Shown in pieces: positions 14,441-27,761 of a stretch of DNA of 36,879 bases. The notes under the pieces are model-generated. The model ran no database searches. It saw only the letters and a program-made list of their open reading frames with translations, and was not told the origin of the DNA. The position numbers and the translations under genes were made by a program. This stretch comes from Chloroflexota bacterium (GTDB lineage Bacteria > Chloroflexota > Anaerolineae > Promineifilales > Promineifilaceae). The stretch lies in assembly GCA_018004935.1 (NCBI GenBank), contig JAGNBF010000079.1:1-36879 (forward strand), written 5' to 3'. Positions within the stretch are counted from its first letter, which is position 1. Every line of letters starts with the position of its first letter.

Positions 14441-14669
14441 AGCCCGAACCTACTCAGGCTGTGGCCGCTGTGGCCGCCAACAACAGCAATTCTCAATTTG
14501 GCCTGAGCCTCAACAAAGGCAGAGGCCGCCCGGCCGTAAAACGGACCGGGCTATACTTATGAAGGCCGTTGGCCTGGGGTCTTAGCCCGTAGGGCTTGGT
14601 ACTGATAGCCCGGCGGTTTGACTGTCGGGCGGATTAAGGGAATGCTTACCCTTCAAATTGAGAATTGCG

Positions 14670-14709
14670 GCGCCAACAAAATGTCACTTTATGACCGTGG
14701 TCGGTATAG
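14670..14709 (-). repeat. Unoccupied copy of the target of the 27.2-kb insertion
   Basis: Read on the minus strand this gives CTATACCGACCACGGTCATA, AAGTGACATTTTGTTGGCGC. The same sequence, interrupted by a 165-bp element, is at 27177-27386 on the plus strand. It serves as an internal empty-site control. Confidence 0.75.
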
Positions 14710-14743
14710 TTACAAATGGTTAATGATCGTAACTATTCAAAAC

Positions 14744-26548: not shown

Positions 26549-27112
26549 ATGAATCTCACAGTCCACGCTCGTAACATGGAAATCACCCCACGCCTGCAAA
26601 ATTACGTGGAAAAGAAGACAGGGCGTCTGGATCGGTATATGCCTAACCTGGCTGAGGTACGGGTAGACCTCTCCGAACAAAAGGCACGGAATGCTGTCCA
26701 GCGTCAAGTGGCTCAAATCACTGTGCGGGACGACCGGGGCACTATTCTGCGGGCAGAAGAACAGAGCAATGATATGTTTGCCGCTGTGGATGCCGTAGTG
26801 GACAAACTCTACCGGCAAATTAATCGGTATCGAGGCAAGCGGCAACAGCGGTGGCGTCCGACCGGAGATGGGAATGAGGTGATGGGTGAGCCTCTGCCTA
26901 TCGAAGCAAGCGACGAAGAGTCGGAAGAACGGCGGATTGTCCGGCAAAAGGGATTTTCTTTGCGCCCTATGTTGCCCGATGAAGCGCTGGATCAGATGGA
27001 GCTATTAGGGCATGACTTCTTCGTGTTCTTTAACGCCGAGAATGAGTTAGTGAATGTCGTTTATCGGCGGAAGGATGGCGATTACGGATTGCTGATGCCT
27101 GATCTGGTTTAA
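26549..27112 (+). CDS. hpf: Ribosome hibernation promoting factor, long form
   Basis: A 187-residue protein that dimerises 70S ribosomes into inactive 100S particles in stationary phase. It has an N-terminal S30AE domain (1-100; LTVHARNMEITPRLQNYVEK) and the short C-terminal dimerisation domain (from about 128; IVRQKGFSLRPMLPDEALDQ, ending VVYRRKDGDYGLLMP), as in long-form HPF. AGGAGG lies six nt before the ATG. It is co-transcribed with comF and followed by a clear terminator. Confidence 0.95.
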   Translation: MNLTVHARNMEITPRLQNYVEKKTGRLDRYMPNLAEVRVDLSEQKARNAVQRQVAQITVRDDRGTILRAEEQSNDMFAAVDAVVDKLYRQINRYRGKRQQRWRPTGDGNEVMGEPLPIEASDEESEERRIVRQKGFSLRPMLPDEALDQMELLGHDFFVFFNAENELVNVVYRRKDGDYGLLMPDLV

Positions 27113-27172: not shown

Positions 27173-27205
27173 GCTACTATACGTACCACGGTCATAAAAT
27201 GACAT

Positions 27206-27370
27206 TGGGTGTGTTTCATTTCGGTTGAGAGAAAGAAAATAATTAATCGGTGAATTTGTGAATTGTTGAATGATTAACGAGAGGAGCGTCTACCGCTTTA
27301 TTAACAGTTCAACAATTCAACAGTTCAACAGTTCAACAATTAATTATTCAACTCATTTGAAACACACCCA
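27206..27370. mobile_element. 165-bp non-autonomous insertion with target duplication
   Basis: Perfect 13-bp terminal inverted repeats TGGGTGTGTTTCA (27206-27218) and TGAAACACACCCA (27358-27370), flanked by ATGACAT at 27199-27205 and 27371-27377. The surrounding sequence without the insertion is present at 14670-14709 on the other strand. The interior has no gene; it holds near-tandem copies of CAGTTCAACA (27304-27337) with an inverted counterpart near 27258-27276. Confidence 0.85.
27304..27350 (+). repeat. Short tandem repeat, 9-10 bp unit
   Basis: ACAGTTCAAC and ACAATTCAAC units occur four to five times in succession, with GTGAATTGTTGAATG upstream as a partial inverse. It is internal to the 165-bp insertion. 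Confidence 0.75.
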
Positions 27371-27394
27371 ATGACATTTTGTTGGCGGTAATAG

Positions 27395-27550
27395 ATTGGA
27401 TAGGCCCCGGCTGAAAACGCATCCTCCAGCGATCCCAGAGGGAAGGCGGAAACCCAACAGCGCGATTTGACGGGCGTCCGCCTGCCAAACTGCGCCAGAA
27501 ATAGTTCTCCGCCCCTGGGAGCGGGGTTAGGGGTGGCCTCGGATATGCAC
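27395..27550 (-). repeat. Variable-palindrome element, decayed stem
   Basis: GATCCCAGAGGGAAGGCGG, a damaged palindrome around 27460-27496 (GCGCGATTTGACGGGCG against CGCCTGCCAAACTGCGC, 13 of 17 paired), then CCGCCCCTGGGAGCGGGGTT and AGGGGTGGC. The only copy whose stem has drifted. A GTAGGG-family repeat follows at 27643-27699, and nothing else is recognisable before the next gene. Confidence 0.6.
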
Positions 27551-27761
27551 GGCTCGGCGATAAAGCGACACGACAATAGGGCGAGAAAACCGCAGATTGT
27601 GCCAGTTGCCAGTGCATAACGTTTAAGTAAAAGATTTTGGCGGTAGGGGCAACCCATGTGGTTGCCCTCTTCTGGGCAGGCACAAGGTCAGCCCCTATCC
27701 CCAATCATTATCTTGAGATCTATATAGCCTTTCGTACGGAAACTTTGTGAGGGGATAAGGC

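Follow-up and report, generated by a model that had tools for sequence, protein, structure and literature searches.

The window, by which we mean the whole stretch of 36,879 nucleotides analysed here, is contig C60 of a draft genome (7.98 Mb in 229 contigs, 96.6% complete). Downstream of a gene at 26549-27112, it carries a copy of a dispersed repeat, hereafter the host repeat, which is broken by a short element; the start of a second host-repeat copy holds the same target without this element (Table 1).

Table 1. Coordinates of the element, its target sites and the autonomous elements with matching ends in related genomes.
Feature	Position	Strand	Remarks
MITE, no coding sequence	27207..27369	+	163 bp; left end 27207, right end 27369
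Left terminal inverted repeat GGGTGTGTTTCA	27207..27218	+	
Right terminal inverted repeat GGGTGTGTTTCA	27358..27369	-	
22-bp left end	27207..27228	+	Identical to the G015 IS; 1 mismatch versus the G028 and G011 IS
22-bp right end	27348..27369	-	Identical to the IS of G015, G028, G011 and G031
Target duplication, left copy AATGACATT	27198..27206	+	
Target duplication, right copy AATGACATT	27370..27378	+	
Four 8-bp units GTTGAACT (as read on the minus strand)	27306..27337	-	One unit altered
Host dispersed repeat TATACTTACCACGGTCATAAARTGACATTTTGTTGGCG..., broken by the MITE	27178..27620	+	Right limit approximate
Second copy, start of host repeat, target without MITE	14671..14710	-	
Empty target AGTGACATT	14680..14688	-	One base different from the 9 bp of the occupied site
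G015 element	Contig C312		Both ends bracket 1672 bp; encloses 517-aa protein P0001 (NCBIfam ISKra4, E 4.4e-87, 292.9 bits versus cut-off 205)
G011 element			1724 bp; ISKra4 match over cut-off; contig stops at right end
G031 element			1575 bp; ISKra4 match over cut-off; exact 9-bp duplication ATTAAATTG
G028 element	Contig C236		1626 bp; degenerate (173.3 bits, under the family cut-off); flanks unequal

A preliminary description of the window had read the element as a 165-bp insertion with perfect 13-bp ends, flanked by 7-bp ATGACAT duplicates. That it is an insertion, and that it has inverted ends and a target duplication, is confirmed, but all three lengths need adjustment. TGGGTGTGTTTCA does form a perfect inverted pair at 27206-27218 and 27358-27370, with ATGACAT duplicated next to it; the outermost T/A pair, however, belongs to the duplication, so that the element is 163 bp long, its perfect ends 12 bp and the duplication 9 bp. 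The precision claimed for the boundaries was therefore one base off on each side of the element and two bases off in the duplication. The sister copies have the corrected limits, as their alignments mostly span positions 2 to 164 of the 165-bp sequence. Overall, the two ends of the element agree at 18 of 22 positions (by eye), and the element terminates in CCC.

When folded as RNA, the element forms one strong long hairpin (z -8.35). This is consistent with a build of two complementary halves and should not be read as evidence for an RNA function. Since it carries no gene and adopts this long-hairpin fold, we assign it to the MITEs; it is also short (163 bp), with 12-bp perfect terminal inverted repeats and a 9-bp target duplication, as is characteristic of this class. 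It is a fresh member of an already known class, and the window copy on its own is ordinary.

The element is present at many unrelated sites in its own genome. A search with the 165-bp query gave at least 40 matches, each 100 bp or longer (E 5e-34 or better), a lower bound, as scoring covered 40 of the 200 first-look candidates. Genome-wide, the 12-bp end is present 303 times at one mismatch or fewer, compared with 22 for the reversed-pattern control, which is beyond chance and again as expected of a MITE in many copies. Duplication lengths, whose listing the preliminary description had proposed as a check, were determined for 30 fetched copies selected without regard to duplications, with the ends set at query positions 2 and 164: the longest match between the flanks is exactly 9 bp in 19 copies, no other length above 1 occurs among the 30, and the remaining 11 lack an exact duplication. 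Identity to the consensus averages 96.0% over the 27 copies that could be aligned; three copies (L025, L027 and L029) were left out since they do not extend to both ends. Most sister copies are 155 bp long, and relative to these the window copy has one extra 8-bp unit in its right half. Pairs of ends flanked by a duplication measure 147-164, 242, 306, 364 or 458 bp, and we therefore distinguish several MITE subfamilies with common ends. At one locus (L048, 4234-4642 of contig C92), two members of this end family, of 245 and 155 bp, are separated by only 9 bp.

The flank of the MITE agrees with the region near 14671-14710 (minus strand) at 92.5% over 40 bp. The preliminary description had noted the same flanks at both loci, which is confirmed; the empty target (AGTGACATT) differs at one base. 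A 31-mer of the host repeat around the target is found at 198 uninterrupted places in the genome at three mismatches or fewer, whereas the control gives none. The earlier reading of one repeat family inserted into another is thus supported, both by these uninterrupted targets and by the exact 9-bp duplication. With 198 copies of the host repeat uninterrupted, the direction is insertion and not deletion, and the occupied site at 27 kb is the derived state. Twenty fetched loci of the host repeat begin sharply on the left near TATACTT, and most of them then continue alike; the left edge of TATACTTACCACGGTCATAAARTGACATTTTGTTGGCG is sharp and its right part diverged.

The second copy had also been described as uninterrupted. 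This is correct for the target itself, but the copy is not intact: a different insert of 187 bp, at 14484-14670, lies 9 bp from the MITE-free target. It has near-perfect 17-bp inverted ends, CCGCAATTCTCAATTTG and CAGCAATTCTCAATTTG, and its own 9-bp duplication, TTGTTGGCG (coordinates by eye), and its interior matches other loci of the genome at 75-90%.

The likely source of the mobility of this MITE was found in related organisms. In a set of 198 genomes, comprising its own and those of relatives, short end matches of 22-27 bp are present in 13 relatives, while the matches in the remaining relatives are interior pieces. The preliminary description had suggested a search for matching ends with a transposase gene between them. 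Such genes exist in the relatives: elements with the same ends in G015 (P0001), G011 and G031 carry an ISKra4 transposase over the family cut-off (NCBIfam NF033572, 205 bits). None was found between matching ends in the genome of the window; the ends are shared with autonomous elements of 1.6-1.7 kb in the relatives only. Apart from the ends and the GTTGAA motifs, the MITE interior has nothing recognisable in common with the autonomous elements, and in the G031 element the left end diverges from that of the window copy beyond the first 12-13 bp. An ISKra4 match occurs in 11 of the 13 relatives with end matches, as opposed to 63 of the 184 others, a comparison that is confounded by relatedness.

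No ISKra4 transposase was found in the MITE's own genome, in a search that returned matches in 74 of the 198 genomes; this is the usable negative, as an earlier search of the same genome had a silent control and was uninformative. With PF01609, which as a control did give matches in 9 of 14 genomes, there was likewise no match in this genome. With PF06782 there was nothing either, but its control was equally silent, which renders this result uninformative. We also inspected 20 stretches around mostly unpaired ends, together with the frames adjoining these ends, and recognised no transposase among the candidates listed. These comprised host frames, a repeat array and a DNA methyltransferase-like frame, and were rejected. 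Given that the ISKra4 transposase was not found in this genome, the MITE copies look orphaned, or dependent on a parent that has been lost or was not assembled.

The ISKra4 group corresponds to p-MULT 4 of the prokaryotic Mutator superfamily, and has been reported from Chloroflexi among other phyla, according to the accessible part of Guerillot et al. 2014 (PMC3942029). These families, in the same portion of that work, make 8- or 9-bp duplications and have inverted repeats with a terminal C. The transposase family of the elements with the same ends agrees with this, as do the 9-bp duplications (19 of 30 copies, and the G031 element) and the inverted repeats, of which a length of 18-39 bp is expected and which here agree at 18 of 22 positions and end in CCC. 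The window element differs in being gene-less, and also in that the insertion upstream of promoters described in PMC3942029 is not seen. There, a sigmaA promoter lies 13-17 bp from the insertion in several ISKra4 members (13), so that it is not defining for all. With simple consensus scoring, 0 of 48 flanks in the own genome and 2 of 96 in other genomes score at least 9/12 at 10-20 bp (controls 3/192 and 9/384).

We conclude that the element is, with high probability, a non-autonomous MITE of the ISKra4 group that was presumably mobilised in trans into a second dispersed repeat. In the proposed sequence of events, an ISKra4 transposase supplied in trans would recognise the 22-bp ends of the MITE with their GTTGAA motifs, and would then cut or copy the element into a target with a 9-bp stagger within a copy of the host repeat; repair of the gaps by fill-in would generate the duplication AATGACATT. 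The chemistry and the order of these steps, as well as the role of the GTTGAA motifs, are to be taken as a proposal. Against it stand the fact that the partner transposase is one we infer from the sequences of relatives only, the unlike interior, the diverging left end in G031, the 11 copies without an exact duplication and the degenerate state of the G028 element.

Three other accounts were weighed. The presence of an occupied and an empty form within one window could also mean that the 27-kb form is ancestral and that the copy at 14.67 kb lost its element by precise deletion, which the preliminary description had named as the outcome that would overturn its reading. This idea failed against the 198 uninterrupted copies of the 31-mer (control 0), the exact duplication of 9 bp that the occupied site carries and the occurrence of the MITE at many unrelated sites; it has a negligible probability and is in practice already refuted. 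Another transposase family might instead move the MITE, the match to the ISKra4 ends being a by-product of shared end sequences. The missing ISKra4 gene in the own genome would fit, and 9-bp duplications are also produced by other families, e.g. ISAba12/MITEAba12 (in the available part of PMC6382973). Nevertheless, the 22-bp end matches are with elements that enclose ISKra4 transposases, and a PF01609 transposase is just as absent from the own genome, hence we regard this account as very improbable.

The third account is a variant that leaves the main claim unaffected, namely that the organism does have the ISKra4 parent and that the 229-contig draft lacks it. In its favour, the assembly is a draft (96.6% complete), contigs stop within 250 bp of several of these element ends, and the copies are young (mean 96.0% to the consensus). 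However, fragments of the parent at contig ends should still give a match, as they do elsewhere (e.g. 87-bp pieces), and none is seen in the own genome. We therefore consider a missed parent rather unlikely, and mobilisation by an ISKra4 element that was probably lost from this genome remains our preferred reading.

A close parallel to such an arrangement is MITEAba12 with ISAba12, where a short element, likewise gene-less, has the ends of an autonomous IS, with 9-bp duplications and a proposed mobilisation in trans; it differs in its ends (GGCTTTGTTGCA...), in having the parent IS in the MITE's host, and in showing no trend in its duplicated sequence (PMC6382973, in the part available).

In the own genome, the sister copies of the window element mostly lie in REP-like palindromes. 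CGATTTNNNAAA precedes 171 ends in the own genome (at two mismatches or fewer; control 0), and the full core CGATTTNNNAAATCG has 983 exact occurrences (control 0), amounting to 0.18% of the genome. The cores are often paired, with GTAGG/CCTAC at the outer sides. Of the own copies with a duplication (one mismatch or fewer), 19 of 28 are within a core at two mismatches or fewer and 12 of 28 in an exact one, at a central position; set against a genome cover of 0.18%, this exceeds chance for these copies, among which the window copy is not counted. The latter is outside a REP-like core (7 mismatches). In other genomes, by comparison, 48 copies have an exact duplication; only 1 of them is in a core, and the duplications follow WWWT(C/G)AWWW. 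As the two fractions mix genomes that have the palindrome with others that lack it, the P value for their difference is no clean test. The pairs were kept only if their 9-bp flanks differ at no more than one base, which sets the duplication length partly by construction; the 48 exact copies from other genomes derive from 58 pairs, after those with a one-mismatch duplication were dropped; one 848-bp composite pair was also left out. Across 59 genomes, counts of the palindrome range from 0 to 983 and are high only within the same family. Some members of that family that have the palindrome also bear copies at other sites, e.g. G010 at AAATGATTA.

A base preference alone fails to explain the concentration in REP-like units because, with a matrix built from the 48 other-genome copies, 1276 of the 36871 9-mers of the window score as high as the palindrome centre TTTACCAAA or higher. 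A purely palindromic preference within the 9 bp found no support in either set: the duplication halves are no more complementary than shuffled ones, since 699 of 2000 shuffles (other genomes) and 1961 of 2000 (own genome) reach the observed value. It follows that, in the own genome, the effect of the palindrome stems from the surrounding REP-like unit and not from a match between the duplication halves. Co-amplification of REP and MITE as a block looks unlikely too, as the outer flanks of the own copies (70-400 bp) share only short or diverged repeat pieces, the longest being 262 bp at 66%, in a check made in repeat-rich surroundings.

Tentatively, then, the ISKra4 transposase of this Anaerolineae lineage might insert both IS and MITEs at the exact centre of REP-like hairpins; what it recognises would be the palindrome, perhaps when extruded, and not the 9 duplicated bases. 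Against such targeting speak the duplication halves, which are no more complementary than shuffled ones, and the copies at other sites in family members such as G010; insertions in REP-like units may also simply be tolerated. REP-targeting IS include IS1397, ISKpn1, IS621, ISRm22 and others, from the families IS3, IS110, IS4, IS256 and IS5 (PMC1525189, in the part available). Like these, the sister copies insert into high-copy extragenic palindromes; unlike them, ISKra4 is not among the families listed in that part of the source, and the window copy itself is outside such a palindrome. REP-like palindromes as a target of ISKra4 are not mentioned in the available part of PMC3942029, the stem 'palindrom' is absent from its main text, and no title returned by our literature searches concerns ISKra4 MITEs or ISKra4 in REPs. 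If targeting is real, ISKra4 would join the five IS families listed as REP-targeting in the accessible part of PMC1525189, and the nearly one thousand cores would be a bank of safe landing sites.

What the locus offers is a well-delimited bacterial MITE of Mutator-like type, for which related genomes hold the likely parent, in a lineage where this MITE mostly lands in REP-like palindromes. It is this concentration of sister copies that is worth following, and the target choice of ISKra4 becomes testable, as the same ends are found at one kind of target in some genomes and at another kind in others.

Some further loci deserve mention. In MAGs that carry the labels Anaerolineales, Herpetosiphon and Chthonomonas, loci such as L134 and L136 bear short MITEs with the same ends, many of 109-113 bp, whose duplications follow WWWTSAWWW. 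At L031 (1931-2782 of contig C11 of the own genome), paired REP-like palindromes form a tandem array with a 102-bp period and at least nine units. A search for a REP-associated tyrosine transposase (RAYT) yielded a single weak match to PF01797, which lies within a larger frame of 389 aa (L222, 643-1809 of contig C65, also of the own genome), where the weak Y1 transposase match is in the C-terminal part. The neighbouring frame is one we take to be polymerase I-like, and the Y1-like part of the 389-aa frame is perhaps a domesticated domain.
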